NCBI GenBank assembly: GCA_964036195.1
Contig: OZ038450.1
Location: forward strand, 24,333,208-24,397,207
Direction: 5' to 3'
Origin: Sphaerolaimus hirsutus
Taxonomy: Eukaryota > Nematoda > Chromadorea > Monhysterida > Sphaerolaimidae
DNA: 64,000 bases
Position 1 is the stretch's first letter, and every line of letters begins with the position of its first letter. A program made the position numbers and the translations under genes. Positions 1 through 64,000 of the stretch are shown one piece after another. The notes under the pieces were generated by a model. It did no database searches. It had not been told where the DNA came from and saw only the letters and a list, made by a program, of their open reading frames with translations.

Positions 1-534
1 GGCGCCAAACTTCTGGTGCTTTTCTCATCACTAGTCCGCTGAGCACACAAATTTTTTCCCAAAATTTCACAATCACGCAAGGCATATTGGAGGTGATCTT
101 TGCAGCGATGATCTGGTTGAAAAAAAAGTTCAATAAATACAAAAATGTCCAAGGTCTTCACCAGTAGTCGAACTGGCATCGCAAGTTATGTTCACTTTGC
201 ATTTTTGAAAGATTACTTTTTTTAAATTAATCACTTCCCTGTCAAAATGTTGGTCCTCTGTAAATCTTTCACTAAAATATTTACTGCTTTCACCGGAATG
301 TCAAATTCTTGAATGTAAAAGAGGGTACTTTTTATAGAAAATGCAAAATCGAGTACTTTTATGGAAAATGTAAAAGAGTTAGGCACATAGCAGTGTCCCG
401 TTTATGGGACAGGGGACACGCCATGCATTAAAAATTGGTTTTTATCTGTTTTCAACAACTTTCCAGGCATTCCAATTGAATGGGCTACTTGTATGTAAGG
501 TTTATTTACAGGAACAGGTCGCGCTGGTGGGGAC
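1..534. other. Intergenic sequence, nothing recognised
   Basis: AT-rich sequence begins with the six bases GGCGCC, possibly the tail of a GGCGCC-family element outside the window. A few TGTAAAAGAG repeats occur near 310-380. No gene or complete repeat was seen. Confidence 0.6.
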
Positions 535-1079
535 TAACCATGGCAAACCCCCTTAAAAAGAATAATGCCTATAGTGCTTGAATAATCCCCCTGGGGGATT
601 ATTATTTCGCCAGTCTGTTTTAGGGGGGAACTATTCGAGGGGGGGGGATTATTCGAGGGGGGAATTATTCTTTCGTCAACATTTTCAAGCGTCTTTCTAT
701 CAAGTTATTCCATGATATATTCATTTTTTAACTACAAAAACACAAAAACAACAACTAATTGGTCAAATATTTTTAAGGGGGGGGTTGTTCGAGGGGGGAA
801 TTATTATTTCCTCACTCGTCTTACAAGGGTTGAATATTCAAAAGGGGGGGGGAATCATTCAAGGCAAATACTTTTTAAATTTTTTTAGTGTTTTTCTAAC
901 TGACTTCAAATTTTAATTTTTTTCTGAAAAAAGTTTTTGAATTTTGGAATTATGTTTTTCGATTTTCTAATTTTCAAATCTTTTACATTACTTTTCGAAT
1001 TTTTAAATCTTTTATAGTAGTTTACACATTTTTTGCATCAGATAATTGCATTTTTGAATTTTTCTTGTTAATTTTAAAC
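535..1079 (+). mobile_element. Partial AATTCG-family hAT-like element with a C/G-rich insert
   Basis: The left terminus TAACCATGGCAAACCCCC at 535 matches the AATTCG family. It is interrupted at about 560-865 by a subtype-3 repeat with GGGGGATTATTCGAGG motifs, after which the AATTTTCAAATC array continues to about 1060. No right terminus was found. Confidence 0.55.
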
Positions 1080-1330
1080 CAGAGTTGTTAAAATACCGGT
1101 ATTTTTGGAAAGTGTAAGTGTAAAATACACTTTCCAAATTTTGAGTCTGGATACCAAAAGTGTAAGGTATTTTTAAAATACCTAGGAAAGTGTAAAAAAA
1201 AGTGTAAGTGTAAAAAAAATTTCTTAGAAAGAGCTCTCACTGTTGAGCATTAGAATACACCCACTGTTTTCACCTTTAGATCAATATATTTGTCATTTTT
1301 ATGCATCATTTCACATTTTACTGCCTTTTA
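1080..1330 (+). mobile_element. Partial hAT-like element, GTGTAAGTG variant
   Basis: The left terminus CAGAGTTGTTAAAATACC is followed by an array of GTGTAAGTGTAAAATAC. The right end is missing. The same terminus with ACGTAAACG arrays is complete at 18323, 20770 and 39792. Confidence 0.6.
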
Positions 1331-1854
1331 TGAAATATTTCAGACTGTAGCAAATACTGTAGTGGTATGAAGTTCACTAATAATGGCACCCTTTTCAGTG
1401 TTGATATTTACTGATTAAGCAATGCGATACACACTTTGACTTTGTGTCGCAGCTGGTGAATTTCCATTGATCTTGTCCTTTTTACAAAAGTATGATGAAA
1501 CTGTAGAATACCATGAGTACTGATCAAAGGTTGGAGATCAAAGGCCAGTTTGTACATTTTGCCATATTTTCTACATTCAATGCATAACTGCATGTGTGCA
1601 CTGTGCAGTTATTTTTTGTAAACACCTTCCCGCGTCACGTCCGGCACCCATTTTTTGATTTTACTTCTCACATCCTATCCGCCAGTTCTAGGGCACCCCA
1701 GAGGCTGAAACTTGGGGAGATATTGGCGCAACCTCCCTCTACTTTGCACGAATTTGGGGGGTCGCGGCGACCCCTCTCAGCGTGGGTCGCCCTAAGTGCA
1801 AACATTTTTCCGGCTTTTTTGGTGTCCCACAGCAGGTCCGGCACCCGCTGATTT

Positions 1855-2522
1855 CTGAGCTGTGGGAGGGGGTATAAATTTGAAATTTTGGAGATGTGTT
1901 ACCCTACATCACTCCCCTACTATATACACTATTCAATAATGTGAAATAAATGTGAAATATTTCTAAAAAATTCGCTTATTCTCTAAAAAAACACACACTC
2001 CCCCAATAGATGGATGACAACAAAATCACTTTTTGGAACTTTTTTATTCAACACTTGAAGAGATGGTTTACGATACTTTAAAGGGGAACGGTTTGATGTT
2101 TAAAGTTTTGTAAAGAACCATACCTCTAAAATGCCCTGCATTACAAAATTTACTTAGGGTGAATTTTATGACATCATAATGACATCATTGCAGGAACAAA
2201 AATTTACAAAATTTAAACTTTGAAATTCCCCCAAGTAAATTTTGCAATGCCAGGCATTTTAGAGCTATGGTTCTTTACGTAACTTAAAAACATCAAACCC
2301 TTTCCCTTTAAAGTATCGTAAACCATCTCTTTAAGTGTCTAATAAAAAAGTTCCAAAAAGGTAATTTTTTGTCATCCATCTATTGGGGAGTGGTGTTTTT
2401 TAGAGAATAAGTGAATTTTTGAGAAATTTTTCAAATAAATCTCACATTTTTGAATAGTGTACAGTAGGGGAGTGGTGTTGGTAACACATCCCCAAAATTT
2501 TAGATTTATACTCCTCCCACAG
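1855..2522. repeat. Foldback with arms of about 330 bp, cut by the gap
   Basis: The sequence from about 1855 to 2180 returns in inverted order from about 2170 to 2522. Examples are GATGGTTTACGATACTTTAA against its complement near 2320, and the TGACATCATAATGACATCA centre at about 2169. There is no coding potential. The outer end of the right arm is lost in the gap, so a TSD cannot be tested. Confidence 0.75.
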
Positions 2523-2722
2523 NNNNNNNNNNNNNNNNNNNNNNNNNNNNNNNNNNNNNNNNNNNNNNNNNNNNNNNNNNNNNNNNNNNNNNNNNNNNNN
2601 NNNNNNNNNNNNNNNNNNNNNNNNNNNNNNNNNNNNNNNNNNNNNNNNNNNNNNNNNNNNNNNNNNNNNNNNNNNNNNNNNNNNNNNNNNNNNNNNNNNN
2701 NNNNNNNNNNNNNNNNNNNNNN
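2523..2722. other. Assembly gap of exactly 200 N
   Basis: The gap is 200 unknown bases, a round number typical of a placeholder. It begins at the outer edge of one arm of a long hairpin (1855-2522) and ends inside a C-rich MITE, both of which are hard to sequence and assemble. Confidence 0.98.
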
Positions 2723-2802
2723 TGTTTAACCCCCCCCCCACCCCTCTTGGGACCACTATGCAACAATCACCCCCCGGGGGTATTTCGAGGAAATACGGTA
2801 TA
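2723..2802. mobile_element. Right end of a CCGTAT-type MITE, cut by the gap
   Basis: The sequence after the N run matches the right 80 bp of the subtype-1 MITE, including ACCACTATG and the terminal GAGGAAATACGGTA. Confidence 0.65.
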
Positions 2803-2937
2803 CATGTTCATGCAATTGCAAGGATATTCAACACTTTCCCAAATAATGGGCAGATGAGAGATGTTCAAATGCATGGTGTTGCGTTGTGTTGACAATCAAG
2901 TTTTATTGTCGATATTATATGTTTATATGCAATGTAC

Positions 2938-3450: not shown

Positions 3451-3463
3451 CAAATTGAAGCAC

Positions 3464-3790: not shown

Positions 3791-4025
3791 TCAAGGCCAA
3801 CTTTATAGAGGAGTTAATTAGAGGGAGGTTTTTCAATGTTCAGTTTTTCAAGTGGGGGTGGGGGTATTCAAAGTGGAATTTATTGAGGGCTCAATTGAGT
3901 AGCTGTTTCAATTTTGACAATGAAACATGTAAGTTAGGAGTTTTCTGCACTTTGTAAAACTACCATGCAGAAACCATGTGTTGGAGCAGAGTAAAACACA
4001 TGCAAACATCAAATGCTCCACTTGA

Positions 4026-6012: not shown

Positions 6013-6039
6013 TATTTCAGTGAAATCACAAAAAATACT

Positions 6040-7986: not shown

Positions 7987-9238
7987 ACCTCAGTAGGATC
8001 ACCCAGGATGATCCAATGGGAGACAGCAAATCCGGACTGCCAGATCTAGAAATGGCAAAAACTTTCCTGACTGATCAATATTTTGGGTCGGAACACGTTC
8101 TGTCGCACAGCCAATTTTGGTTGCGCAGTTTTATAGATAGGCTTTGCACAACTAACATTTGTGCCATAGATTTTTTTGGTTTTATTTCGATTTTGTGTTG
8201 GAATGGCACCATTGCACTGGCGTCAAATGGAACTTTAGTTGTGCAGTGTAGTGATGGAAAAGCGCCATGGCGCTGGCGCCTGGCGCTAGCGCCAAAGCAA
8301 AAAGCGCCATGGCGCTTTTGGCGCTTGGCGCTAAAACGCTCTGGCGCCATTGGCGCTTGGCGCTGGGGTCTGCGAAAGCGCCATGGCGCTTTTGGCGCTT
8401 GGCGCCATTTTCCGGTGGCGCTATTGGCGCCTGGCGCCGGCATTTGAAATGGCGCCAAAAAAGCGCCAACCATGATATTATGAAATTGTTATAATACGGT
8501 GAAATCGCCACTCCAGTTGATCAATTTTGAGGACAAATGAATAAATATAAGTTAATTTTAGGGCAGCCTTTATATAGGTACCTATAATTAACGATGGCAA
8601 AAAAAGATTCTAAAATTCGAAAACATTTTCGAATTTTCGAATTTTTTCGGAATTTTCGAATTTTTATTTCACCATTGGAAAAAACACAAAAAATTCGAAA
8701 ATTCGAAAATTCAAAAATTCGAAAATACTTTTCGAATTTTTCAGGTAATTCAAGGACATATAACACATTCTTAAGTTCAATGTGCTAATTCGTTCGACAA
8801 TTGAGGCGCGGTGCGTCTGAAAAAGTGTATCGAAACAAAAAAAAACGTTTAAAAACATTGAAATGACCTCCATGGTGGACCCATAGCTGGAATCGGGAAT
8901 GACATTTTAGGGGGTTGGATGAACACCAGACTTTTGTGTTGCCCATTCTGTTACACGTCAGCCAATTTTGATACCGTCCAAGTATGTTGTGGTTTCGGGT
9001 CAAGGCTATGACCGAATTGTTTTGTTTCCTCGAATCATCCACCAGGCCCGAGATAAGGTGGGTCTATAAAAGGTGTTGATTTTACATGGCCAATCAGGCA
9101 AGTTGAATTTAAAGCTTAATAACTCAGCCATTTCTTGGCCGATTTGGACCATTAAATACTTAAAATGATCTGTACAATCTGTAGATTCCATTTTTCAGGT
9201 TAGATTAGTGATGTAAAAATTTGTTATGCTAATTTGAC

Positions 9239-10086
9239 TAGGGTTCAAACGATATCACTTTTTGATATCGATATTCGATATTCAATATTTTTTCAAAATT
9301 TTCGATATCGATATTCGATATTCAATATTTTTTCAAAATTTTCGATATCGATATTCGATATGATATGGACCCTCGATATCGATATTCGATACTAAAAAAT
9401 GGTCGATATTCAATATCGATATTTCGATATTTTTGATATTCAATATTTAGCTTTTGGTATAGCAAGGCATATTTCAAGCAGCATATTGTATGTTCATATG
9501 GTTGCAAACATGGTTGATTATCTTTTTACTGAAAAAGTACAATTGATTTTGACAAGGTTTACAATGGTCAGAATGATAAAATCGAAGAAAAAACATGACG
9601 AATAAAATTGTATCAGACAAACAAAAATTGGTAGATATTACAATTCATACTTATAACCCAATTGATTAAGGGCATGTTGCAAAAAAGCAGCATATCAGCA
9701 TTTTCTGGCTTCAAATTTGAGGTAGGTAGTTCAGTAGGTATGTGGCCAAGCCAAATACAAGAAATGTGGAGTAAGCACTCCAACAAAGATGACATTAAAT
9801 ACTTTACTTTTACCCATCAACTTAGATACTATAAGCAAATCAAATTAATCACAAATATCTCAAAACAAAAATAATAACTTAATTAAGGACATTATACAGG
9901 TTCGATATATCGAAAATATGGTCAATATTCGATATCGATATTTGATATTTTTTCAAAATTTTCGATATCGATATTCGATATTCGATATTTTCTCAAAATT
10001 TTCGATATCGATATTCGATATTCGATATTAAAAAATGGTCGATATCCGATATTCGATATTCAATACGATATATCGTTTGAACCCTA
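9239..10086. mobile_element. GATATCGATATTC-array hAT-like element, 848 bp
   Basis: It begins TAGGGTTCAAACGATATC and ends GATATATCGTTTGAACCCTA, and the flanks are AATTTGAC on both sides (9231-9238 and 10087-10094). Arms are dense arrays of GATATCGATATTCGATATT. The 450-bp core has no recognisable gene. Confidence 0.9.
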
Positions 10087-10154
10087 AATTTGACCCAGTA
10101 TTTCAACATCTAACATGAATTTTTCTGAACATGCTATCATATACTTGATGTAAA

Positions 10155-10262
10155 TACTGTTTATCTCAAATAAGTCCCCAGGGCAGTTTTTTTGTCAAAA
10201 TTTTTTGAGGGGGACTTGTTCGAGGGGGGAGTTATTCAAGTGGGATTCGAGGATTTATGGTA
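10155..10262. repeat. Subtype-3 G-rich repeat fragment
   Basis: AAATAAGTCCCCAGGG through GGGGACTTGTTCGAGGGGGG to GAGGATTTATGGTA, a degenerate copy of the element seen at 25938-27675. Confidence 0.45.
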
Positions 10263-10965
10263 AATATATGTATAAATCACATATAAACAGAGTCAAATTG
10301 ACATAAAAATATCGACATTACTAATCCAACCCCAGAAATTGAATCGATAGGTTGTGTAGATTATTTTAACTTTTGAATGGTTCAAATCGGCCCAGAAATG
10401 GCCAAGTTATAAGCTTCAAATTTGACTAGCCAGATCGGCCGTGTGAAATTATCATAAATAGACACCCCCCTTATCCTTGGGACTGGGAGATTATATTTGA
10501 GGAAAACCAAAAAAATGGTCATACCCAGACCCAAAACCCAACATACTTGAATAACATCAAAATCAGCAAATGTACAACAGAATGGAATGACACAAAAGTG
10601 TGGTGATCTCCTTCCCAGTACAGCCATCCCCAATTCCAGCTATGGGTGGACCTAGTCATGTTGAGGAATGTGCAGGAATGCACCGAGCACCCATAACTAT
10701 TTCAACATAACTAATTAACAGCTTAAAAGCTCTCAATTCAATATTTTTCCAAAAAATTCGAAAATTCCCCTCAAAAATTCGAAAATTACCCAAAAAAATT
10801 CGAAAACTGCCCAAAAAGATTTGAAAATTCGAAAATTCGAAAATTAAATCCGAAATTCGAAAATTAACTTAAGGAAAAATTCGAAAATTCGAAAATTCAT
10901 TTTGGAAAAAACACTTAAAAATTTAAATACTTTTTTTCAGGGGGTTTGCCATCGTTACCTATAAT

Positions 10966-12452
10966 TAGTGATGGAAAAGCGCCATGGCGCTGGCGCCTGG
11001 CGCTAGCGCCAAAGCAAAAAGCGCCATGGCGCTTTTGGCGCTTGGCGCCTTTTTGCTGTGGCGCCATTGGCACTTGGCGCTGGGGTTTGGAAAAGCGCCA
11101 TGGCGCTTTTGGCGCTTGGCGCTATGACGCCGTGGCGCCATTGGCGCTTGGCGCTAGTGTTTTAAAAAGCGCCAAAAAAGCGCCAAGAAGTACTCAAAAT
11201 TCATCATTATTTTATGCAGAAAGACCTGTTGGCGCACCGCACACTGAAATTTTGCGTTCAGCGTTCGAACGTTTTTGCACGCTGAACTACAAACGCTGAA
11301 ATCAAAATCTACAGAACAATGCGTTTTTGAAGCGTAAAAATGCGGCTCGCATGCCAATTACGCGAATATTGCAAATTCCGAATTGTTTTACGCTTCAAAA
11401 ATGGTAGCTTCTTGAGATTTTGATTTCAGCATTTGTAGTTCAGCGTGCAAAAACGTTCGAACGCTGAACGCAAAATTTCAGTGTGCGGTGCGGCGTTAAG
11501 TATAATTTACATAAGTCTATGTGCTACTGTCAGTGTATTCCCGGATCAACATACCCTATTCTTGATTACTTTTTAAACAATTTCCTTGTGATTTCATGGG
11601 TAAAATATTCTACATTTGTCCCATCTAATCCGAATTATGTAAGGCTTTATGTGACTATTCATCACACTGGTAACACTCTTCACATAGGTTTTCGCTCAAT
11701 CACTATACTGAGCTCGTTCCTTGCAGTTTTGTTTGAGCAGGGTCAAAGACCCTGTAAAGTGTTAAGTTGAGTAATAAACATCATCCAATGTTTCATAAAT
11801 ACAATTTTGTTAAGTGTCATGCAAAATGTCAAAAGTTGAATCAAAAATGTTTGCTGTTTTCTTTTGATTGACATTTTACATCACATTTACTTCTTGACAT
11901 TTGACACTTGGTTTTACATGGTGTGGAATCACTTTCTGAAGCCATTCCAACCATGGCAATCCAAAATTTGAAACCTCAAAATCCTGTGTTCAAAAGTGAC
12001 TAGCAAAACTGCAATATCCTAGTAGAAAAATCGGAAGTATTCCAAAAAAAATTGAAATTTGAAAATTATTTTTTGGGAAAAACAACTAAATTCCAAAAGT
12101 AATTTTAAAAAAATCCTAAAAAATCTTAGCACTTTTTACAGATGGTGTGCTATACATAGCCCAAACACCCAGCTGCAAAATATCAAGACAACAAGAACAA
12201 AAGTGACTGCATCAGCATGGCCGCATATATGAGAAGCAAAAAATTTTTTGGCGCTGGCGCTATTGGCGCTTGGCGCCAATATCCTCTGGCGCCATTGGCG
12301 CTTGGCGCCGTGGTCTAGAAAAGCGCCATGGCGCTTTTGGCGCTTGGCGCCATTTTGCTCTGGCGCCATTGGCGCTTGGCGCTGGGGTTCGGAAAAGCGC
12401 CATGGCGCTTTTGGCGCTTGGCGCCAAAGTCCTGGCGCTTTTTCCATCACTA
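10966..12452. mobile_element. GGCGCC-family hAT-like element, adjacent to the previous one
   Basis: It starts TAGTGATGGAAAAGCGCC directly after the CCTATAAT of the neighbouring element and ends GGCGCTTTTTCCATCACTA at 12452. A third CCTATAAT follows at 12453-12460. GGCGCC arrays are at 10978-11187 and 12248-12445. A short inverted pair in the core (about 11225-11290 and 11440-11490, GCGTTCGAACGTTTTTGCA) resembles another small palindrome. P-type units lie at 11735-11925. Confidence 0.9.
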
Positions 12453-13989
12453 CCTATAATACATCGAATGAAAGCAAAGGTGTTAAAATGTGCTGGCAAT
12501 AAATCCCCTTTTATGCTTTGCTCCCAATTCTTTCTTGCTGTCTAAATCAGGGGTTCAGTCTGGCGGGGGTTGGAGGGGGGACGGTGGAGTTACCCTTAAA
12601 TGCTGCAGTTATCTATCCACCCCCAGGGCCGCTCAGCTATATATCTAACTTGAAACATAATTTTAGGCTACTATCCCGCGAGCCCCCCCCAATCAACCTG
12701 CAACCAGATACGGACCGATTAATAGCGAAATTTTGCCCCAATTTTCACAAAAAATGCTGATTTTCATACTTTTTATAGTATTCACCTTAAAAATCACTAT
12801 CGTGATTTTTCAGACTTCAAAATCATCATCTTTAACGTGTATTATCACCTATTTTCAACTGTTTATGGCTATATACGCCCCTTAAATCACTCCAGCTCTT
12901 AGCTGTGAGAAACAAAGATCTCCCCATTGAAAGTTCCCCAGTCATGATGTTTGACTGAAAAATATATCTCTGGGCATTTAAACAATTTTTAACATTGTAG
13001 TGGTTGTTTGAATGGGCAAAAGTTCACACAGTTATGCACTCATTTTTCTACCATCAAATTGCAGAACAAATTTTTTGGCGCTGGCGCTATTGGCGCTTGG
13101 CGCCATTACCCTCTGGCGCCATTGGCACTTGGCGCTGGGATCAGAAAAGCGCCATGGCGCTTTTGGCGCTTGGCGCCGAAAGCCTGGCGCTTTTTCCATC
13201 ACTAGTGCAGTGTCAAAAATGTGTCCTGCACATCCAATTTTAGTTGGGATGTTTTTTTTGTGTTTTAGTGCAATCTGATGATGTCATCGCGCTCGTGCAA
13301 GGCCATTGGTGCATTTCCATCATTAGGTTGCAATAAAACACAAAAAAATCCAACTCAAATTGGTTGTGCAGGATGCATTTTTGACGCTCCACAACTAAAG
13401 TTCCATTTGACGCCAGCGCAATATCACCATTCCAACACAAAATCAAGATAAAACCAAAAAAATCACCAGGACAAACGTTAGTTGTGCAAAACCTATTTAT
13501 AAAACTGCGCGACCAAAATTGGTTGTGTGGCAGAACGTGTCGTGAGCCAAATTTTTTGGTAAAAACTGACAAACTTTCCTGACTGACCATGTGCACTTTG
13601 GCATTGGCGCCATTTTTCATGTGTTTTTCCATCACTTGCTCCAACCCAGCCTTCACATTCACATTGGGGTATGAAACAACATAGGATCATAACAGAAAGC
13701 ATTGACATTTTAAATATCCATTGCCTATGTTGTGACGATATAATTTCTGACAGTCATATCGATATGTGGCTTTTAAGCATGTATTTACATGCAACCGCTT
13801 CTTTAGCATTTAATTAAAGATGTATGCAGTCAAAATGTAAAATTTTATGCACTAACCATGGACAAAACATTACAGAAACAGTGGCACTTACTGAAGGCAT
13901 ATATAGTGATACTGACCTGTACTGGCAAGTGCTCAAATTCTTTCTGGTTGATTTATGTCAGGTTCTGACAGAATGCAGGGTGAACAATG

Positions 13990-14480
13990 TAACGATGGCA
14001 AACCCCCCAGAAAAAAGTATTTATATTTTTAAGTGTTTTTTTCTAAAATGACTTTTCGAATTTTCGATTTTTTTCCCAAAATACTTTTTGAATTTTCGGC
14101 ATCAAAACGGCCAACGTACAACAGGATTGAACGATACAAATATCTGATGGACCCCCGCCCTAAAATGTCACAGCTGATTTCAACAATGAGTCTGCCGCGG
14201 ACGCAATTTCAACGTTTTTGACGTGTGTTTTTTGATAAGTTACACATTTTGAGACGCGCCGCATGTGAATTGTCGATTGATTTAGTGCATAGAGCTTAAG
14301 AGTGTGATTTGTGGCCTTGATTTCCCTGAAAAATTTGAAAAGTATTTTTGAATTTTTTGAAGAAAACAAATCGATTTTAAAGTGTTTTTTCCAAGGGTGA
14401 AATAAAAATTCAAAAAGTCTGAAAAAATTTAAAAATTTTGATAAGTTTTCGAATTTTTGAAATTTTTTATGCCATCGTTA
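13990..14480. mobile_element. AATTCG-family hAT-like element, 491 bp
   Basis: Termini are TAACGATGGCAAACCCCC and TTATGCCATCGTTA. Flanks GAACAATG (13982-13989) and GAAGAATG (14481-14488) match at 7 of 8 positions. Arms carry TTTTCGAATTTTCG-like arrays. Confidence 0.8.
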
Positions 14481-16894: not shown

Positions 16895-18322
16895 GACTGT
16901 CTCAAATAATCCAGTCGGTTAATCCTAAAATCCAGTCAGTTAATCAAATAATGAATCAGCTGCACTAATTCAGACCACTCACCACCTCTCATTACACACA
17001 ATATGCAAACACAACATAAGAAATGACAATAGCAAAAAGAGTTTAAATAGTAAAAATAGAATTTGAGAAGCAGTCATATCTATTTAAGTTCTTACAACTG
17101 GAGCAAAACTGGACTCATAACAAGTGAGGTCTGTTGAGTCTGAATGACATAATATTGCTCCGATTACAGCTCGGATGTAAAATTCCTGTGTAATTCCATC
17201 GCAAAATTGATTACATGAAAATGGATGATGATACTGATGCCTGTTCCGCAAATGGAGAAGTGAGAAGAAAATAATGGCAAATGTGAAGTGAAATGAGACG
17301 TGAGAAGTGAAGTGAGAAGGAAATTGGCAAAAGCGAAGTGAAATGGCAAGTAGTGATGGAATGGCGCCATTCTGGCGATGGAGTTTCTCTGGCGCCATCT
17401 GGCGCCTGGCGCTATTATTTTGAATGGCGCCATGGCGCCCTTGGCGCTTGTCGCCATTTTCGCTGGTGCCAACTTGGCGCCCGGCGCCATTGTTTTGGAT
17501 GGCGCCAGAAATGGCGCCAAGATGTGGGGAAGTTACGTAATATTTGCATATTGATGTGCCTCATCTACTGAATGATATCATTCAGTAGCTATTGAACACA
17601 GTCATCTTTTTGCTAGTATTGCAAGTTTGTGCATTTTTTATACCACATTTACTGCAAATCTCCAAATATGTCTCCAAACACTGGGGCCAATAGTATTTTG
17701 AAAATATAATTGTACTGTATTTTCTAGATGTACCTTGGGGGTTTATTAATTTCACTAGCAAATTTTGAGGAGGGTTAATTCAAGGGGGCTTATTCGGTGG
17801 AGACTTTATTAATACATACATCAGTAATTTCGTGAAATTCCACATACTCAGACAGAGAAATTCAACAATAACAGAGATTTATAGGTGTCTATAGTTTATA
17901 ATAGGGAGAGGTAGGTAAATATTATTCAAACTAGCTCACCCAGACCTGGGTGTATGTGTATGTGTGGGGGGAGTAATTCGAGGAAATGCAGCAGCAGTTG
18001 CATTAGGATGTGATGTGGTGGTCTACATACTTATACATATCTTGTACACACTTAAATATGCATCTCTGTTATTGTTTTATTTTTTCACTCTGATTGTCTG
18101 AGTATGTTTACAAGCAATTAATAGATACTATAATGTTTTGGCATAATAATTGACCCCCTCAAATAAACCGCCCATGAATTAACCCCCAAAATTTGCTACA
18201 AAAAACAATAAAATTCTTTGGGGTGAGGGGTATTATATAAAGATAAGAAGAGTTTTTGTGGCTTTTCAATATATCATCAAAGTGATTAATATAACACTTT
18301 TCTTTTCGATAATTGCTTCTAC

Positions 18323-19348
18323 CAGAGTTGTTCAAATACTGGTATTTTTGGAAAACGTAAACATAAACGTAAATACCTTTTCCAAATTTAAAGTATAAAT
18401 ACTAAAACATAAGGTATTCTATAAATACCAAGGAATACGTAAAAAAGACGTAAACGTAAAAATTTCAAGAAGTACCCCATAAAAGCAGAGCTTCTGAAAA
18501 GATCATTTGTTGTGACATTTTCAACAATGTATACATGATTTCCATTCACAGTTTTCACTTTTTCGCGTTTCATAGCAAACAAAAGTTTTTTTCTAATTTT
18601 TGTCTATTTGTTAATTGGTGTGTATGGCCTCGCAGTTTAGGAAACTTAAGGATTAGCACGCACTTCTTCATCAAAAATTACATTATAGCAAGACATCAGC
18701 AGGTTATAGATGAAACAAAACAGTGGAAGATTGTATACCGTAAATGCCATATTAGGACAACCCCCCTCCAATAAAGCGATCTCTCCAATAATACGACCCC
18801 CTTTGGCACATTGTGTACATATAAAGTGACCCTCTCCAATAAAGCGACCCCTCCAATAGTGTGATCTCCAAAAATTTGCTGAAAAGAATAAACTGACAGT
18901 CACCTTATTGGAGCATTTACAGTAATGCACAAACCAAATACATCGGTACACACATTCCATTTTTCTGCTTGTATTTGTTGCTAACACATTCCTTCACACT
19001 GTTCACATTACACAATTGAGACATTGATTACATTTACAATTGCTAGATTACACATTTATTCATGAAATTTCCACTGTCAAAAAGACAATTTAACAACAAC
19101 ACAATTGGCATTACATCCAATTGGTATAACTATTTACACAAAATCATAGTGTGAATGTAGTAATGTAGCAATTTTCTCAGACGCGTGGTTTCGTATAGCT
19201 GGATTTTTACGTTTTCTCTGGTACCCGGGTAATTGTGCCAGGAAAACGTAACAAAACGTAATGGTATTTTTGGAAAACGTAAACGTAAGTATAAATACCC
19301 GAATAATCGGGTATTTCGGGTAAACGTAAATACGTTTTTCCAACTCTG
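18323..19348. mobile_element. ACGTAAACG-array hAT-like element, 1026 bp
   Basis: Termini are CAGAGTTGTTCAAATACTGG and CGTTTTTCCAACTCTG; GCTTCTAC is repeated exactly at 18315-18322 and 19349-19356. Arms are AAACGTAAACGTAAATACC arrays. A smaller MITE lies inside at 18736-18924. Confidence 0.9.
18736..18924. mobile_element. TA-flanked MITE with CCGTAAATGCC ends
   Basis: TA-CCGTAAATGCC at the left and GCATTTACAG-TA at the right enclose repeated CCAATAAAGCGACC units, 189 bp in all. Confidence 0.65.
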
Positions 19349-19584
19349 GCTTCTACTTACTACTATGATATACATGCTGATCAAGCGAATTTTACTCTTG
19401 GCGCCATTTCGGCGCCTGGCGCCATTTTCGCGCCTGGTGCCATTGTTTCTGGCGCCCTTTGGCGCCCGGCGCCATTATTTCAGATGGCGCCATGGCGCCA
19501 TTTTCTCTGGCGCCCTTTGGCGCCCGGCGCCAATTTTTTGAATGGCGCCATTTTTCCTGGCGCTTTTCCATCACTAATGGCAAG

Positions 19585-20769: not shown

Positions 20770-21593
20770 CAGAGTTGTACAAATACTGGTATTTTTGGAA
20801 AACGTAAACGTAAACGTAAATACCTTTTCAAATTTTGGAGTATAAATACTAAAACGTAAGGTATTTTTAAAATACCTGGGAATACGTAAAATAAAACGTA
20901 AACGTAAAAATTAATATTAAGTGCATCCACTATCACTGAATATAAAAAGAACATTTTTACAACATTATGTATGTTCCTATGATCTTCATTATCATCATCT
21001 GTTTACCTACATACCTGTATTTTACCTATATTTTATATAGAATTATGGGATCGGGATATTGAATTGGGATAGGATCGAAACCGGTTGAGATTTGGCGTCG
21101 TTGTCAACTAGTGCGTGTAGGGTCATATGGTGCCAATTCCTTAAGTGGAGAACAGCAAGTTGAATGGCATATGAAAAGTAAAAAAAAACAGTAAATTTAT
21201 AAGTGGCAAATGAAATGGCAAATTAAAGGACACATGGCAGGTCACAAGACGACACTAGTTTTTGACTTTTGACTTCATTTCACTTCTCACTCATAAATTT
21301 ACATTCCTCTCAAATTTTTACTTATAATTTTTAAATTGTTCCAGTTCTCCACTTGCAGAATTGGCACCTTCTCATCATTTAAGCATGATTAACTCATCAT
21401 AATACACTACATTTGTCAAATAATACAGTTCCGTTAACTTATTTTTTACGTTTTCTCTGGTACCCGGGTAATTGTGCCAGGAAAACGTAACAAAACGTAA
21501 CGGTATTTTTGGAAAGCGTAAACGTAAACGTAAGTATAAATACCCGAATAACCGGGTATTTCGGGTAAAGGTAAATACGTTTTTGCAACTCTG
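20770..21593. mobile_element. ACGTAAACG-array hAT-like element, 824 bp
   Basis: It starts CAGAGTTGTACAAATACTGG and ends CGTTTTTGCAACTCTG. CTAGTAAG flanks both ends (20762-20769 and 21594-21601). Confidence 0.9.
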
Positions 21594-23605: not shown

Positions 23606-23780
23606 CAGAGTTGTGAAAGTGTATTTACACTTACCCGAAATACCCAGGTAAATGGGTATTTATATTTACACTTACACTTACACTTTCATACACCCATACC
23701 CATACACTTTTTTTACACTTTCCTGGGCAAAATACCCGGGTACAGAAAGTGTATACTTTTCTTTCAGATGGCCCTGTTTT
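23606..23780. mobile_element. One end of a GTGTAAGTG-variant hAT-like element
   Basis: CAGAGTTGTGAAAGTGTATT is followed by TTACACTTACACTTACACTT arrays and GGGTACAGAAAGTGTA. The partner end is absent. Confidence 0.5.
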
Positions 23781-25937: not shown

Positions 25938-27675
25938 TACCGTATATCCTCGAATAAGTCCCACGGGGAGTTATTTTTCATCAACAATTTTGAGGGGGTA
26001 CTTATTCAAGGGGAGCAGTTATTCAAGGGGGAAATTGTTCGATACATCTAATCGATACAAGGGGGAATTTTCAGTAAAATGTATGATTAATTTACTGCAC
26101 AAATGGGAGTAATTTGGTAACATAGGAATACAAGATTCACAATTCAAGCAGTGAAATCAATGTTAGTAAACTCTAGCTGCAAGTAACGATGGCAAAAAAA
26201 GATTCGAAAATTCGAAAACATTTTTGAATTTTCGAATTTTTTCATAATTTTCGAATTTTTATTTCACCCCTAGAAAAAACACTTAAAAATCGATTTATTT
26301 TTCAAAAAATTCGAAAATTCAAAAATTCAAAAATTCGAAAATACTTTTCGAATTTTTCAGGAAATTCAAGGCAACAAAACGTACTCTGAAGTTCAACGTG
26401 CTCAATAAATTGACAATTGGTACGCGTTGCGTATGAAAAACGAAACAAAACAAAAAAAGGTCCAAAAACGTTGCAATGTAAAATGCCCTGTAAAATGTGG
26501 AATGTCATGCAAGTGTCAAAAGTTATGAAAACCATTAGTGCCCAGGAAAATGGTTAACATATTTGCAATTTTCCACAGCATTTCCATGACTTTAGACACT
26601 TTGCATAACATTTGACATTTCACAGAGCACTTTACAGGTGTCTGGGATGGCCCATAGGAACTGCACAAAAGAGATGTGATCAAAGATATTATCAAAGAAG
26701 AGTGGTTTGAGAAGTATTTACCTGTATTTATCTTGTGAAGTTAGCACTGTATGCACTGAGTACGCTCAGTGCTCTATACTCGGGCAACATTACACTGTAC
26801 ATTTTTCTGGAGGTAACACTAAATCATGACGTCATAACCGCAGTTGGCTGTGAACTTATGGCTCACTGAACCAGTTCAGAGTTGGGATGAAGTGGAGTGG
26901 AGTGGGGAGTCAGTTCACAAGTTTGGCTGTCTGCCAGCCGAAGACATAAATCATATCTATTTGTAGAGTATCACATCTGCCGAGTATAGCCACTTCCAAA
27001 ACAGTCCAAATTCTTCATTCAAAACTTCAGATTCAATATTTTTACAAAAAAATTCGAAAATTAATTGAAAAAATTCGAAAAATAGCCAACAAATTTGAAA
27101 ATTGCCAAAAAAGGTTCGAAAATTCGAAAATTCAAAAATTAAATTCGAAATTCGAAAATTCATTTCAGGAAAAATTCGAAAATTCGAAAATTCATTTAGG
27201 AAAAAACACTTAAAAATTTAAATACTTTTTTTTGGAGGGTTTGCCATCGTTAGCTGCAAGATAATACATATACTAACATAATAAATATACTCCAGTGACT
27301 TTACACCTTGCACGCGTGGTTCACTCTGGAAGCGTGCCAACGATACTTCAGCGCAGCTAATTAAATGAATAATGTTTATTTATGCTAATGCTAATCTTTA
27401 TGTGTTATTTTAACAACAATGTCGTTTTCCATCTTTTTACAAAAATTGAATGCTTAATCACTATTGGCACGCTTCCAACGTGAGACATAAATCAGTCCGA
27501 GTGCAGAGTATCAAGTCCGCCGAGTATACATAAAACGTTTTTCTAAATGTGAAATATTGTGAAATATTTTCTACCTATCAAAGGGGGGATTATTCAAGGG
27601 GGGAGTTATTTTTTACTCATGCTCACAGGAGAGTGACTTATTCGAGGGGGGGGACTTACTCGAGGATATACGGTA
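25938..27675. mobile_element. CCGTAT-type MITE, subtype 3, split by a hAT-like element
   Basis: TA-CCGTATATCCTCGAATAA opens it and GAGGATATACGG-TA closes it. Blocks of GGGGACTTATTC and GGGGGAGTTATT lie just inside each end. The AATTCG element 26184-27252 sits in the middle. Interior 27300-27525 shares CCAACGTGAGACATAAATCA with 48130. Confidence 0.65.
26184..27252. mobile_element. AATTCG-family hAT-like element, 1069 bp
   Basis: It starts TAACGATGGCAAAAAAAG and ends GGTTTGCCATCGTTA. GCTGCAAG flanks both ends (26176-26183 and 27253-27260). TTCGAAAATTCG arrays form both arms, and P-type units lie at 26475-26652. Confidence 0.9.
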
Positions 27676-31344: not shown

Positions 31345-31350
31345 ACTGTA

Positions 31351-35862: not shown

Positions 35863-35870
35863 CCCATGAC

Positions 35871-39380: not shown

Positions 39381-40989
39381 TAGTGAAGTGAAAGCGCCAT
39401 GGCGCTGGCGCCTGGCGCTAGCGCCAAAGCAAAAAGCGCCATGGCGCTTTTGGCGCTTGGCGCTAAAATGCTGTGGCGCCATTGGCGCTTGGCGCCGTGT
39501 TTCCAAAAGCGCCATGATGCTATTGGCGCTTGGCGCTACTTTCCAGTGGAGCCATTGGCGCTTGGCGCTACCATTTTCTAAAGCGCCAAAAAAGCGCCAG
39601 AGAGTTATAATTGCACCGCGGTGTTCATGTGCCTTATTGCCTATTTTCAGAAATTTTTGGCCATGTATGTAAAAAAATTTACATAGCTATTTTACACAGA
39701 TATGTAATTCAGCGATTTTTACCCTGTTATCTCACAGTTTGCACTTTAAATCTTGAAATATCTAATAGATTGAAACGCTGCAACCCCCAACCAGAGTTGC
39801 AAAAACGTATTTACGTTTACCCGAAATACCCGGTTATTCGGGTATTTATACTTACGTTTATGTTCACGTTTTCATAAAATACTGTTACGTTTTGTTACGT
39901 TTTCCTGACCGAAATACCCGGGTACCAGAGAAAACGTAAAAAAAGTTGTGAGACCCAAAAATTTTCAGCAAAATGCAACTTCCGCCATAAATTTCCGACA
40001 ACTTTAAAAATTTTGCGCGCCAGCGCACACTTTTCCTCCACAGAAGCCGTATTTTCAAAATACTAATTCAATATTCAAATTCAAGCCGTATTCAATATTC
40101 AAATTATTCTATAGTTCAACCCCACCTCAGTGCAGAGTATTATGTGTTACTTCCCAAACTCGAATTGTGCCAAATGCTTAGGTATAAAAAAGTCAGCAGA
40201 CGCTGTTATTTAGTGGCTTTCGTGGATTGATTTTGTGCTTTTTGAAGATCAAATGTTGAATCAACTCTCTGAATCGCCATAATATAAATTTTTTTGTGAC
40301 ATAACACTTGGGAAAACGTTGACAGAACGTGAAAAATTGATTGAAAAACCGGTGAAAAAATAGAAGGGCAGCTTCCAAAAGACGGCGTCTCCATAATAGA
40401 AAGTTGGTGAGAAATAGAAGGGCGCCCTTCTATTATATGAAATACGGTAATAATTTTTTTACGTTTACGTTTTATTTTACGTTTTCCCAGGTATTTTAAA
40501 AATACCTTACGTTTTAGTATTTATACTTTCATTTTGGAAAAGGTATTTACGTTTACGTTTACGTTTTCCAAAAATACCAGTATTTGACCAACTCTGCCCC
40601 CAACCCCCAGACAATCTTTCAGCTTCTACCGCTTCAGAGAGGCAATTTGCTATCTATTTGAACCAGTCCTCAGTCTGTTTGAACCTTGTGTGTTGAGCAA
40701 GAAAACTTATTGATTTCCATTATTTGACCATTTTTGTGTTTTTGGAGGCAATACAAGTTATTGAAAGTGAAGAAAATTGTACTTTGTCTCACCTACCATT
40801 AAAGGCAATATCATTTTGGCGCTGGCGCCATTGACGCTTGGCGCCATGGCCCCCTGGCGCCTTTGGCGCTTGGCGCTAAGGTCCAGAAAAGCGCCATAGC
40901 GCTTTTGGCGCTTGGCGCCATTTTGCTGTGGCGCCATTGGCGCTTGGCGCTAATTCCGGAAAAGCGCGATGGCGCTTTTTATATCACTA
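39381..40989. mobile_element. GGCGCC-family hAT-like element just after exon 4
   Basis: It begins TAGTGAAGTGAAAGCGCC and ends GGCGCTTTTTATATCACTA. GTGGTGCC flanks both ends (39373-39380 and 40990-40997). Arrays are at 39390-39600 and 40818-40980. The ACGTAAACG element 39792-40596 is inserted in it, so the original length was about 800 bp. Confidence 0.9.
39792..40596. mobile_element. ACGTAAACG-array hAT-like element, 805 bp
   Basis: It begins CAGAGTTGCAAAAACG and ends ATTTGACCAACTCTG. CCCCCAAC flanks both ends (39784-39791 and 40597-40604). Arms are TTACGTTTACGTTT arrays. Confidence 0.9.
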
Positions 40990-41826: not shown

Positions 41827-42878
41827 CAGGGTTGGCAAAATCTCAGAAAAAAATAAAAATAAAATAAAAATAAAATGGAAAATTTAAGAATAAAATAAAA
41901 TAAAATAAAATGGAAAATTGAAAAATAAAAATAAAAATTGTATAAAAATTCGAATTTTTGTAAAATTTTTGTAAAATTGTATAAAAATTCGTATTTTTGT
42001 AAAATTGTATAAAAATTCATGTTTTTTTTTGTAAAATTTTTTCTCATTGCTTGAGTTTCTACCTGTTTATTCATCGATCTGGGGGCAGTTCCAAGCTTTG
42101 TAAAGTGTCAAATGTCATGTAAAATGACATGCAAAATGTCAATCGTCATGACAAATGTAAAGTAAAGTGTAAATTGTCATGGCATATAAAAATTAAACTA
42201 TCAATTGTCAAGCAAATTGTATCCAAATCTTATGTTTTGTATCCAAATTCTGTTGTTGTTGAATCCAAATCTTATGTGAACATTTGGATACAAAAACATT
42301 AGATTTAAATACCAAACATACTATGGATACAAAAACACAACATTTGGATACACAATTTTCACTTTGCATGGCAATTGTAATGTTAATTGCCACTTTGCTT
42401 GAAATTTGACATGACACTTGACATTTTGCATGAGAATTGACACTTTACTTTATGTTTGTCATGACAATTGACACTTTGCATGACATTTCACAAATGTGCC
42501 CAGTACACTCCAGTAGTCCTTCTACTGAAAATGCTCACCATTTTTATCAATAATTGTAACTAAACACTTGCAGCCAGCTAACAATACGGGGTAAACAACC
42601 ATTTTGAAAAGTAAGGGGTAAATTTGTCACGGTTTTTCATGTATAGGTCTAATTGTAACATTTTTCTGGTTTTGCATGCATGATTTCGATTTTTTGTAAA
42701 ATTTTTGTAAAATTTTTGTAAAATTTTTGTAAAATAGTGTCATTTTATTTTATTAATGACTTTTGGGAATAAAATAAAATAAAATAAAATGAAACAAGAA
42801 TAAAATTAAAATAAAATAAAATTTTTATACAATTTTTATACAATTTTACTAAAATGAATTTTTATAAAACCAACCCTG
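41827..42878 (+). mobile_element. AAATAAAAT-family hAT-like element, 1052 bp
   Basis: It begins CAGGGTTGGCAAAATCTCAG and ends TATAAAACCAACCCTG. TTCATTGG flanks both ends (41819-41826 and 42879-42886). Arms are AAATAAAATAAAA and TTTTTGTAAAATTG arrays; the interior is the P-type hairpin with AAATGTCATGTAAAATG units. Confidence 0.92.
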
Positions 42879-57271: not shown

Positions 57272-58858
57272 TAGGGTTCAAATGGGACCGTGGTCCCGGT
57301 ACCCAGTTCAGCAAAAAGTCAGTCCCGGTCCCGGTCCCGACACCCCAGTCCTGGTCCCAGTCCCGGAATTTTTCAGTGTTCCCGACTTTGATGATAAGTG
57401 ATGGAAAAAATGTTGTTTTTTTTCCATCCCTTCTACAAAATTTTTTTCAAACACGTCTAAATATAGTTGCGAGTCAACAAATATAGGTATACAAGACAAG
57501 CGGTAGTAGTTTGTCAAAAAATACATTTCTAATGACCCAGTCCCAGTCCCGGTCCCGACAATCCCAGTCCCAGTCTCGACACCCCAGTCCCGGTCCCGGT
57601 CCCAGTCCTGACATTCAAAAATTCCTGGTCCCAGTCCCGGTCCCAACCACCCAGTCCCATTCCCGGTCCTGGTCCCGACCAGGGTTGGCAAAATCTCAGA
57701 AAAAAATAAAAATAAAATAAAAATAAAATGGAATATTCAAGAATAAAATAAAATAAAATAAAATGGAAAATTTAAGAATAAAAATAAAAATTGTATAAAA
57801 ATTTGAATTTTTGTAAAATTTTTGTAAAATTGTATAAAAATTCATATTTTTGTAAAATTTTTGTAAAATTGTATAAAAATTCATATTTTTGTAAAATTGT
57901 ATAAAAATTCATATTTTTTGTAAAATTTTGTCTCATTGCTCGAGTCTCTACCTATTTATTCATGGATCTGGGGGGCGTCCCAAGCATTGTTAAGTGTCAA
58001 ATGTCATGTAAAATGTCATGCAAAGTGTCAATTGTTATGACAAATGTAAAGTACAGTGTAAATTGTCATGACATGTAAAAATTAAAGTATCAATTGTCAA
58101 GCAAATTGTGTTCAAATCTCATGTTTTATTTTGAAATCTTATGTTTTGTATCCAAATTATGTTGTTGTTAACTCCAAAACTTTATGTGAACATTTGGATA
58201 CAAAAACATAAGATTTGGATATAAAACATACTATGGATACAAAAACACAAGATTTGGATACACAATTTACACTTTGCATGACATTTGTCATGACAATTGC
58301 CACTTTGCTTGAAATTTTACATGACACTTGACATTTTGCATGACAATTGATACTTTACTTTACATTTGTCATGACAATTGACACTTTGCATGACATTTTA
58401 CAAATGTGCCCAGCACGCTCCAGTAGTCCTTCCTCTGAAAATGCAAACCATTCTTATCAATAATTGTAACTTTACACTTGCAGCTAGCTAACAATACATA
58501 TTGCATGCAACTTTTGAAAAGTAAGGGAAAAATTTGTCACAGGTTTTTCATGTAAGGTCTAATTATAACATTTTTCTGGCCTTGCATGCATGTTTCTGAT
58601 TTTTTGTAAAAATTTTGTCCAATTTTTGTAAAATTTTTGTAAAATGAGTCATTTTATTTTATTAATGACTTTTGGGAATAAAATAAAATAAAATAAAATG
58701 AAACAAGAATAAAATTAAAATAAAATAAAATTTTTATACAATTTTTATACAATTTTACTAAAATGAATTTTTATAAAACCAACCCTGGTCCCGACATTGG
58801 AAAATTTCTGGTCCCGGTCCCAGTCCCGGTCCCGAAAACTGGTCCCGTTTGAAACCTA
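57272..58858. mobile_element. GGTCCC-array hAT-like element
   Basis: It begins TAGGGTTCAAATGGGACC and ends GGTCCCGTTTGAAACCTA. ATTGGAGT flanks both ends (57264-57271 and 58859-58866). Arms are CCCAGTCCCGGTCCC arrays. An AAATAAAAT-family element is inserted at 57680-58787. Confidence 0.9.
57680..58787 (+). mobile_element. AAATAAAAT-family hAT-like element, 1108 bp
   Basis: It begins CAGGGTTGGCAAAATCTCAG and ends AAAACCAACCCTG. GTCCCGAC flanks both ends (57672-57679 and 58788-58795), so it landed within a GGTCCC array. The interior is the P-type hairpin array. Confidence 0.92.
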
Positions 58859-59608: not shown

Positions 59609-59634
59609 CCCATGGTGCTCATGGTTCTTGATCA

Positions 59635-61129: not shown

Positions 61130-61340
61130 CAGAGTTGTTAAAATACCTGTATTTTTGGAATACATTTCCAAAGTGTAAATACATAAATAATTTTGGAAGC
61201 ATAAATACACTTTCCAAATTTTAAGTAAAAATATTGAAGTGTAAGGTGTTTTTAAAATACCTAGGAAAGCATGAAAAAAGCGTGAAAATGTAAGTGTAAA
61301 AATGTTTTTCAGAAGTGATCTTGCTGTTGAGCATCAGAAG
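61130..61340 (+). mobile_element. Left end of a GTGTAAGTG-variant hAT-like element
   Basis: CAGAGTTGTTAAAATACC and AAAGTGTAAATAC arrays lead to GTTGAGCATCAGAAG, where the next element is inserted. No right end was found. Confidence 0.55.
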
Positions 61341-62360
61341 CAGGGTTGGCAAAATCTCAGAAAAGAATAAAAATAAAATAAAAATAAAATGGAAAATTGA
61401 AGAATAAAATAAAATAAAATAAAATGGAAAATTTCAAAATAAAAATAAAAATTGTATAAAAATTCGAATTTTTGTTAAAGTTTTTGTAAAATTGTATACA
61501 AATTCATATTTTTGTAAAAATTGTATAAAAATTCATATTTTTTTGTAAAATTTTTTTCTGTTGTTTATAGTTCAACCTGTTCATTCGCGGAGCTGGGGCA
61601 GTCCCAAGCCATGTAAAGTGTCAAAATGTCATATGAAATGGAATGGAAAGTGTCTACTTTCATGAAAATATTAAGTTAAGTGTCAATTGTCATGACAAAT
61701 ATAAATTAAAGTGGAAACTGTAAAGCAAATTGTATCCAACTCTTATCTTTTGTATCCAAATCTTGTTGTTTTTGTAACCAAATCTTATGTGAACATTTGG
61801 ATACAAAAACATAAGATTTAAATACCAAAATATAAGGTTTGGATAGCAAACCATAAGATTCAGATACACAATTTACACTCTGTCATGACAATTATACTTT
61901 GCTTGACATTTGAGATGCCAATTGACTCTTTACTACATTTGTCATGACAATTGACACTTTGCATGATGTTTTACAAATGCACCCAGCACACTCCAGTAAT
62001 CATTCTACTGAAAATGCAAACCATTCTTATCGATAATTGTAACTTAATACTTGCAACTAGCTAACAATACCTACTGCATGCAACTTTTGCAAAGTACACA
62101 AAAAATTTGTCACACGTTTTTCATGTTTAGGTCTAATTATCACATTTTTCTGACCTTGCATGCAAGATTCTGATTTTTTGTAAAATTTCTGTAAAATTTT
62201 TGTAAAATTTTTGTAAAATGGTCCATTTTATTATTTTATTATTTTTTTTGGAATAAAATAAAATAAAATAAAATGAAACAAGAATAAAATAAAAATAAAA
62301 TACATTTTTATACAATTTTTATAAAATTTGTATACAAATGATTTGTATATACCAACCCTG
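61341..62360 (+). mobile_element. AAATAAAAT-family hAT-like element, 1020 bp
   Basis: It begins CAGGGTTGGCAAAATCTCAG and ends ATACCAACCCTG. ATCAGAAG flanks both ends (61333-61340 and 62361-62368). Confidence 0.92.
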
Positions 62361-62394
62361 ATCAGAAGACACACTAATTGCTTTCCCTTTTAGA

Positions 62395-62470
62395 TGATAT
62401 TGGGTTGTCCCAAAAGTTTTTGCCGTTTCAGCATAGTCTCTCATTGGATTGTCCTGGACGATCCTAATGC
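62395..62470. mobile_element. Mariner-like terminus
   Basis: TTGGGTTGTCCCAAAAGTTT followed by TTGCCGTTTC resembles mariner ends. The opposite end and a transposase were not found. Confidence 0.5.
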
Positions 62471-62629
62471 GTTTCAGCCAGGTATAAATATAAGCTGGAA
62501 TTAATTTAAGTGTAAAATTTTGCCATGAAATTGAATACATAAAAGTAAATCCAGTACTCATTCATCTCTCAATCGTGTCCAAAACTCAGCATGCACTGTC
62601 GCCGTTTCCGGGGTAATGAATTTTTCAAT

Positions 62630-62945
62630 GTAATGTATTACCTCGAAATACCCCCATGGGGGTTTATTATTTCGCCAGCAAAATTTGAGGGGGGGGGTTT
62701 ATTCGAGGGGGGTTATTCGAGGTTTTTTTTATTATAAACAAATATTTTATTATTAGCAACGTGTTATAAATAAATGATTGTTCTGATTGTATAAAGACAC
62801 AAAACTCATTTTATCATCAATGTAATGTAAATACCAGATTTCCTGGAAATTTGCCCAGGGGGTTTATTTTTTTGTCAGCAAATTTTGAGGGGGGTTAATT
62901 CAAGGTTTATTCCAGGGGGTCTAATATTTCGCCGGAACTTTTAGT
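62630..62945. repeat. Subtype-2 CCGTAT-type remnants, two partial copies
   Basis: TGTATTACCTCGAAATACCC with TTTATTATTTCGCCAGCAAA at 62634-62725, and GGGGGTTAATTCAAGG at 62880-62945. Confidence 0.55.
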
Positions 62946-63159
62946 TTAGGAATTATTTAGTTTAGGTAATTGACTGTTATTTAATGTATGTTTTCAATAG
63001 TTGCGGCATATTTAAAGATTTGCAGTTTATGTAGTATAAATGTCAATGCTAGCAAAAAAATTGCAAAGGTAAATGTGTTAAAAAGCGCCTAAACTGATAC
63101 CATTCAGCAGATAATGCTGTTGAATATGGAAAATAACACCATTCATCCCAGTACCTTGA

Positions 63160-63375
63160 TGCCATTTCTGGCGCCATCCAAAACAATGGTGCTGGGCGCC
63201 AAATTGGTGCCAGAGAAACATGGCGCCAAGGGTGCCATGGCGCCATTCAAAATAATGGCACCAGGCACCAGATGGCGCCACAGAAAAGGGCGCCAAGCGC
63301 CAATGGCGCCATGGCGCTGGCGCTCCTTCGCGCTATTAAAGGGCGCCAGCGCCATGGCACCATTCCATCATAAGT
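63160..63375. mobile_element. Right arm of a GGAATGGCGCC-type element
   Basis: A GGCGCC array ends in GGCACCATTCCATCATAA, the reverse of the 17351 left end. The left end is missing. Confidence 0.5.
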
Positions 63376-63390
63376 CCTGACACTTTTAAC

Positions 63391-64000
63391 CAGGGTTGGC
63401 AAAATCACAGAAAAAAATAATAAAAAAATAAAATAAAAATGGAAAATTTAAGAATAAAATAAAATAAAATATAATGGAAAATTTCAAAATAAAAATAAAA
63501 ATTGTATAAAATTTGAATTTTTGTAAAAATGTTTGTAAAACTGTATAAAAATTCTTATTTTTGTAAAATTGTAAAAAAATCATATTTTTTGTAAAATATT
63601 TTCCTTGTTGCTTGAGTTTCTACCCGTTTATTTGTGGAAATTGGAGCGGTCCCAAAGCTTTGCAAAGTCTCAAATGTCATGTAAAATGCCATGCAAGTGT
63701 CAATTGTCATGGCAAATAACTAGTAAAGTGTCAATTGTCATGACAAATATAAATTTAAGTGCCAATTGTCAAGCAAATTGTATCCAAATCTTATGTTTTA
63801 TATCCAAATCTTCCATTATGTATCCAAATGTGGATACATAAACATAAGATTTGGATATAAAAACCTAAGATTTGGTTATACAATTTACATGTTCCATGAC
63901 ATTTGACATGACAATTGACATTTTGCATGACAATTGACACTACTTTACATTTTTCATGACAATTGACACTTTGCATGACATTTTACAAATGTGCCCAGCA
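63391..64000 (+). mobile_element. AAATAAAAT-family hAT-like element, cut by the window end
   Basis: CAGGGTTGGCAAAATCACAG begins at 63391 after CTTTTAAC. The A-rich arm and P-type interior follow, and the right end lies beyond 64000. Confidence 0.75.

Follow-up and report, generated by a model that had tools for sequence, protein, structure and literature searches.

How do transposon families with closely similar tips come to carry different, family-specific arrays of short repeats behind those tips? The question is raised by a stretch of 64,000 bp from the nematode Sphaerolaimus hirsutus (C1:24333208-24397207 of a 348-Mb genome; hereafter the window), in which a first reading made from the letters alone (the sequence-only reading) recognised eight hAT-like families, each with 8-bp duplications and an array of one micro-motif. 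Having followed these families through the genome, we think it likely that they are explained by stepwise co-evolution of a BED-type reader in the transposase with the array sites.

All eight families are present in the window as elements bounded by target-site duplications (TSDs). The search used 8-bp direct repeats adjoining YA-type inverted ends, the YA tip being a search condition in most scans, and family G was added by eye. The 18 annotated elements (four of A, three of B, three of C, four of D, and one each of E, F, G and H) have short terminal inverted repeats (TIRs) starting YA, as hAT elements do, and an exact 8-bp TSD in every case except B3, which has one mismatch (17/18). The array words are GGCGCC/AGCGCCA in A, TTCGAAAA in B, ACGTAAACG in C, AAATAAAAT in D, GATATCGATATTC in E, GGTCCC in F, ACTCAAGTTTTT in G, and GCGCGGA in H. 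These subterminal repeats, a further hAT trait, occur at both ends: the top 7-mer of the outer 250 bp was enriched approximately 17- to 107-fold over the window in A, B1, B2, C, D2-D4, E, G, and H; the trait is weak in D1 and in B3, a decayed copy, at just 3- to 4-fold. For F1, the commonest outer word stems from a nested D element, and its own CGGGACC stands at approximately 53-fold. The longer core that had been proposed for four families was also recovered, as exact GNTGGCAAAA in B, D, and the right end of G and as GATGGAAAA in A.

Chance pairing was assessed by measuring the longest direct repeat that abuts each of 2,484 YA-type 11-bp inverted pairs. This repeat was 8 bp in 15 of them, compared with 12 pairs at 6 bp, one at 7 bp, one at 9 bp, and three at 12-13 bp; of the 15 listed pairs whose 8-mers are identical, nine come from the named families, the rest being palindrome or array artefacts or array-less elements. 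A looser control (8-bp repeat, up to one mismatch, shifted offsets) was not clean, with 26 pairs at offset 0, 25 at -1, 92 at -6, and 7 to 14 at +1 to +6; it is blurred because arrays and foldbacks repeat themselves. In agreement with the sequence-only reading, no transposase was detected in the window: 87 stop-to-stop open reading frames of at least 90 amino acids were listed, none of the five scanned with Pfam matched a hAT family, and tblastn of transposase exons gave no match at E 0.05. The window elements are non-autonomous hAT transposons, and their arrays look like hAT subterminal repeats.

The clearest relationship between arrays was found among families with CAGAGTTG ends (the C group). 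Three such families align over approximately 140 bp per end, with the words AACGTAA, AGCGTAA, and AGTGTAA in register. Across the aligned first 140 and 135 bp of the ends, AGCGTAA and AGTGTAA families have different letters in all 14 units but in only nine of the 246 other columns (Fisher 1.6e-17); for AACGTAA against AGCGTAA families, differences fall in 13 of the 14 units and in 31 of the 246 remaining columns (2e-10). The AACGTAA consensus in the latter comparison derives from four copies. Two of these, window 20770-21593 and L111, agree in TSD and length and probably arose by duplication of a single insertion. Between AACGTAA and AGTGTAA families, all seven left-end units differ, as do seven of eight right-end units that align exactly, the eighth being shifted; here, the four AACGTAA copies were three from the window and one from L042. 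Isolated and oppositely oriented units changed at both ends, while the spacers between them stayed.

These families are large. First-look candidates numbered 1,988 (AACGTAA), 1,654 (AGCGTAA), and 1,453 (AGTGTAA), probably with overlap, and 40 were scored for each. In the AACGTAA family, 11 copies including one from the window are identical over 151 bp. TSD-bounded copies were found in three of six (AACGTAA), five of six (AGCGTAA), and seven of eight (AGTGTAA) stretches that were long enough, two with one mismatch. We read 54 left ends, 51 by script and three by a relaxed pattern. All 128 NNGTAA words of the GT class (19 left ends) are GT. The GC class (21 left ends) has 144 GC words and 21 of other kinds, for the most part CTGTAA at an additional site, and the AC class (14 left ends) has 93 AC words among 95, the remaining two being ATGTAA. 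No copy among the 54 mixes the three words, although mixed copies are under-sampled because most copies were chosen by similarity to one query each. Mixed words do occur: the window element at 20770-21593 has a single GCGTAA unit in its right end, and L158, L162, L168, L172, and L173 each have one or two odd words. In a skeleton tree with units masked, the AC clade is firm (97.9/99), GC and GT are unseparated, and the root is unsure; the direction from AACGTA to AGTGTA is therefore suggested by the words of outgroups (L041 and L040) and, weakly, by how the exon-1 tree is drawn.

The array word also agrees with the transposase found beside it. Exon 1 of the C-type transposase, which carries the first half of a BED-like motif including the CxxC half of a BED-type finger, has at least 149 genome matches (150 of 533 candidates scored). 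Twenty loci picked across the ranking were fetched, and 17 have a CAGAGTTG- or CAGTGTTG-type end upstream, while three do not. In all 18 elements showing both features (seven AACGTA and 11 AGCGTA, including L130), the array word agrees with the exon-1 type. With four labels, the exon-1 tree requires three label changes, which is the minimum, and none of 200 shuffles was as low.

A wider comparison was made with the hAT dimerisation domain (PF05699), which has 44 matches in the genome; the loci of the best 30 were examined. In 21 of these, the domain lies inside a TSD/TIR-bounded element (seven B, one C, one E, 11 K, and one L). Among the 21, L011 was resolved via the larger locus L041, whereas L012, L013, L019, and L023 have one TSD mismatch or three TIR mismatches; the seven B loci include two nearly identical copies from a single contig, L024 and L025. 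Other end pairs at L015, L016, L018, L031, and L038 were judged to be chance or array artefacts. Two of these families are new, K with TAGGGTGTCAAC ends and an AACGGAA array and L with CAGAGTTGTTA ends and a CGCGTAC array, and the fetched stretches hold further ones: N (TAGTGATGTAAA, CCGGTGCC), M (TAGGGTTGGGAA, GGGTATCGGG), P (TAGGGTTCAAAC, GGGATC), and Q (TAGGGTGGCAGA, CGGTA). For D, the domain adjoins a D-type end in L035, where a TSD-bounded element was not found, and for A, F, G, and H no dimerisation domain was found among the best 30 of 44 loci.

The domain tree has 23 rows, seven of the 30 loci being omitted as near-duplicates or fragments; the labels of L015, L016, L017, and L035 come from arrays in the locus rather than from TSD-bounded elements. 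The array label needs seven changes on this tree, the minimum possible, and none of 200 shuffles was as low. Domain identity is 79 to 98% within array families and 23 to 58% between them, apart from L020, a decayed, C-like copy that is 73% identical to C. The array label thus follows the domain lineage, and the suggestion of one or a few transposases serving many arrays finds no support where it can be examined, either here or in the two differing exon-1 types. Nor were the families found to carry unrelated transposases, which would have pointed to independent origins: all those found are hAT by their dimerisation domain.

In family L, the element at L041:2544-8549 spans 6,006 bp and has an exact TSD, its own array, and PF05699 at E 4.9e-17. 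By our reading, its transposase appears to be multi-exon. DxW- and DNGSNM-like stretches were seen in the exons by eye only, and a DUF4371 match is far below cut-off. The exons searched (1 to 6) occur together solely at L041 in the genome, and exon 1 occurs at many other places; of three extra exon-1 places fetched, two have the full pair of L-type ends, spaced 864-865 bp, and the third has a single end within the stretch.

Separately, the stretch L129 (G000:C1:12783900-12788000) contains two sets of BED-like exons that lie next to each other, are akin to the L transposase and may be domesticated genes; neither an array nor a CAGAGTTG end was found there. A zf-BED search of the genome gave 15 matches, ten of them in one C1 stretch (L045-L057, 7.46-7.71 Mb) where no array element was recognised and which is a cluster of host-like BED genes. 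The array elements were perhaps unseen by this search since an intron would split the BED domain of their transposase.

A second group may show the same process. The 12-bp tip TAGGGTTCAAAC is common to E, P, and F, whose words are GATATC, GGGATC, and GGGACC. One end of both E and P consists of the tip, a unit, GACTTTTC or a near match, and then further units; F has AGTTTTC at the GACTTTTC place in the single F right end read. Counts of GATAT/GGGAT/GGGAC are 199/0/4 in E (10 ends of five elements), 0/321/0 in P (20 copies), and 1/14/233 in F (20 copies), with P and F copies taken from 40 scored matches of one query each. Unit number varies among P copies. This partly upholds the proposal that arrays expand quickly as families form; the main mode of change seen is nevertheless in-register replacement of the word rather than expansion alone.

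We propose that the catalytic core would cut at the short shared tip, and that the array would provide subterminal sites to which each family's own transposase would bind with an N-terminal BED-type finger. The preference of the finger may shift in small steps of one or two bases (AACGTA, AGCGTA, AGTGTA; perhaps also GATATC, GGGATC, GGGACC), and the array sites would then follow by selection, changing one after another because copies with better-matched sites moved more often. As an outcome, the families would no longer mobilise each other. Precedent comes from studied hATs, in which a BED or N-terminal zinc finger binds short, family-specific subterminal repeats, according to the accessible parts of these reports (PMC10368747, PMC3260210, PMC3143072, PMC4890040). 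Whether hAT families speciate in this manner, with some 15 sites across both ends rewritten in register to give mutually deaf sisters that keep one skeleton, at least twice in each of two lineages and with intermediate words left behind, is a proposition that we hold in even balance.

Several points weigh against this account. The interiors of the C-group miniature inverted-repeat transposable elements (MITEs) are 55 to 65% identical in forced alignment and not clearly homologous, so the shared skeleton amounts to the ends. As far as shown, the homology of E, P, and F is confined to approximately the first 45 bp, which makes the second case weaker than the C group. Support in the exon-1 tree is moderate (89/89 on the AGCGTA side, 63/60 on the AACGTA side), no exon 1 beside an AGTGTA-dominated array was found among the fetched exon-1 loci, and BED exon 2, with the second half of the finger, was sought for the C lineage and not recovered. 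The spliced L041 model matches zf-BED at E 0.0022 and 18.5 bits, below the Pfam cut-off of 20.6 bits. Among known systems, the right-end repeats of Hermes are unbound in the structure, and extra inner transposases were judged unlikely in the portion of the paper available to us (PMC10368747); some Ds1 elements are likewise described, in the text consulted, as mobile without the hexamer (PMC3260210). Not every repeat need therefore be a used site.

Other processes could in principle give families with like tips and unlike arrays. Were one or more promiscuous transposases to cut by the shared tip and ignore a freely drifting array, the likeness of the tips (GNTGGCAAAA in three families, TAGGGTTCAAAC in E, P, and F) and the non-autonomous state of most copies would follow. 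We consider this very unlikely, given that B, C, E, K, and L have separate domain lineages, with the contrast in identity within and between families given above, and that free drift would not hold one word at 14 of 14 units; the lineage argument stops short of E, P, and F, where solely E has a known domain. Molecular drive, by which slippage, gap repair, or conversion spreads a variant word without selection by the transposase, is unlikely too. Slippage does happen, as the P arrays attest, but homogenisation of tandem repeats as the sole cause was rejected on the isolated and oppositely oriented units that changed at both ends with spacers kept, which would require tracts shorter than approximately 8 bp at approximately 14 places. 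Drive does not predict the agreement between exon 1 and word either, though linkage by descent could yield it.

Decay of methylated CpGs within the arrays would neatly produce AGTGTAA from AGCGTAA, a C to T change at CpG. In all 14 units, however, the change lies on one and the same motif strand (chance of 15 such events on one strand, 3e-5) and five of six CpGs outside units were kept, making decay a poor account that is already contradicted; a GCATAA majority in AGTGTAA copies would have been needed. AACGTAA to AGCGTAA, moreover, is an A to G change. We regard this process as extremely improbable. Alternatively, the arrays may be sites for a host factor or have a part in silencing or replication, with constraint by the host, and not the transposase, setting their differences. 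Transposase binding of these particular arrays is deduced from sequence, and the minimal sites known from hAT elements are shorter than these arrays, both of which count for such a role. It remains quite unlikely in our view, as the array word follows the transposase lineage and hAT subterminal repeats are known transposase sites in the passages seen of the four reports above (PMC10368747, PMC3260210, PMC3143072, PMC4890040). Co-evolution of finger and sites is the reading that we favour.

Features of the window: family elements and related ends, with coordinates numbered from the first base of the window.
Feature	Position	Strand	TSD	Remarks
Family A (GGCGCC array, TAGTGATGGAAA ends)	8249..13204		GTGCAGTG	contains nested elements; evidence, TSD and TIR
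Family A	10966..12452		CCTATAAT	TSD common with preceding B element
Family A	17351..19576		ATGGCAAG	
Family A	39381..40989		GTGGTGCC	
Family B (TTCGAAAA array, TAACGATGGCAAA ends)	8589..10957		CCTATAAT	relatives L002-L008
Family B	26184..27252		GCTGCAAG	
Family B	13990..14480		one mismatch	decayed
Family C (AACGTAA array, CAGAGTTG ends)	18323..19348		GCTTCTAC	
Family C	20770..21593		CTAGTAAG	single GCGTAA unit in right end
Family C	39792..40596	-	CCCCCAAC	
AGTGTAA sister of family C	1080..1220	+		left end
AGTGTAA sister of family C	23606..23780	+		right-end sequence
AGTGTAA group	61130..61340	+		decayed left end; mixed GTGTAA/GCATGA/GCGTGA words
Family D (AAATAAAAT array, CAGGGTTGG ends)	35871..36829	-	CCCATGAC	TSD common with preceding H element
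Family D	41827..42878	+	TTCATTGG	
Family D	57680..58787	+	GTCCCGAC	nested inside F
Family D	61341..62360	+	ATCAGAAG	
Family E (GATATC words, TAGGGTTCAAAC ends)	9239..10086		AATTTGAC	
Family F (GGGACC words, TAGGGTTCAAAY ends)	57272..58858		ATTGGAGT	
Family G (AACTCAA array, CAAYGATGG ends)	28264..29057		CGCATGAG	relative L020:1816-2646
Family H (GCGCGGA/GCGCGCA array, CAGGCTGGCCGC ends)	35072..35862		CCCATGAC	

The window also holds arrangements of interest in their own right. Two head-to-tail pairs share 8-bp targets, as TSD-B-TSD-A-TSD with CCTATAAT (8581-12460) and TSD-H-TSD-D-TSD with CCCATGAC (35064-36837); both join different families, as if the second element had entered an identical target. 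Two of four apparent TSD triplets were array artefacts. An element with CATAGCTGGAAT ends and TSD GGTGGACC (8882-10644) occupies the same site in all eight B loci, including L002-L008, with a mismatched GGTGGACC duplication in one of the eight. It was consequently rejected as a separate window insertion and counted as part of the B lineage, which seems to carry an old CATAGCTGGAAT-ended insertion along. A 59-bp tandem repeat at 53105-53504 has GGCGCC and GCGCCA words in its units, thus array words in a satellite-like setting, and no A-type tips were seen there. A further abundant family, bounded by ACCGTATTTCCTCGAAATACCCCC and its inverse and with long C/G runs, lies at 14660-15112, 31350-31645, and 48700-49145.

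That hAT elements have family-specific subterminal repeats is already known; as given in the accessible text of the respective papers, the words are AAGT in Hermes (PMC10368747), AAACGG in Ac (PMC3260210), and CGATTCAT in Herves (PMC3143072). Maize Ac/Ds elements resemble those described here in their 8-bp TSD, short YA-starting TIR, numerous non-autonomous relatives, and many copies of one transposase-bound word within approximately 200 bp of each end; unlike here, there is one word per family, and a sister set with in-register replacement is undescribed in the text consulted (PMC3260210). Hermes is alike in that an N-terminal BED finger reads a short subterminal repeat and that tip and repeats are separate parts, and differs, in what was available of its study, in having scattered repeats rather than dense arrays and in being a single family (PMC10368747). 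Herves (PMC3143072) and Tgf2/Tol2 (PMC4890040) each have their own subterminal word, with 17 and 18 repeats in Tgf2; from the sections at hand, those words belong to distant families, whereas here neighbouring word states sit on one skeleton in one genome. No report of in-register word replacement between sister families was recognised in a search that covered titles and abstract openings, with subscription papers and Repbase outside it.

In S. hirsutus, successive states (AACGTA, AGCGTA, AGTGTA; GATATC, GGGATC, GGGACC) coexist in one genome as large families, and two of the word states come with matching transposase exons. To our knowledge, there is little natural evidence on how end recognition by a transposase can change if many sites have to follow. 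With these states side by side, it can be tested in what order the changes came, which intermediates are tolerated, and whether the families cross-mobilise. The coexisting states also imply that tip likeness alone misjudges which transposase serves which MITE, and the sister families could provide orthogonal transposon ends for tools.

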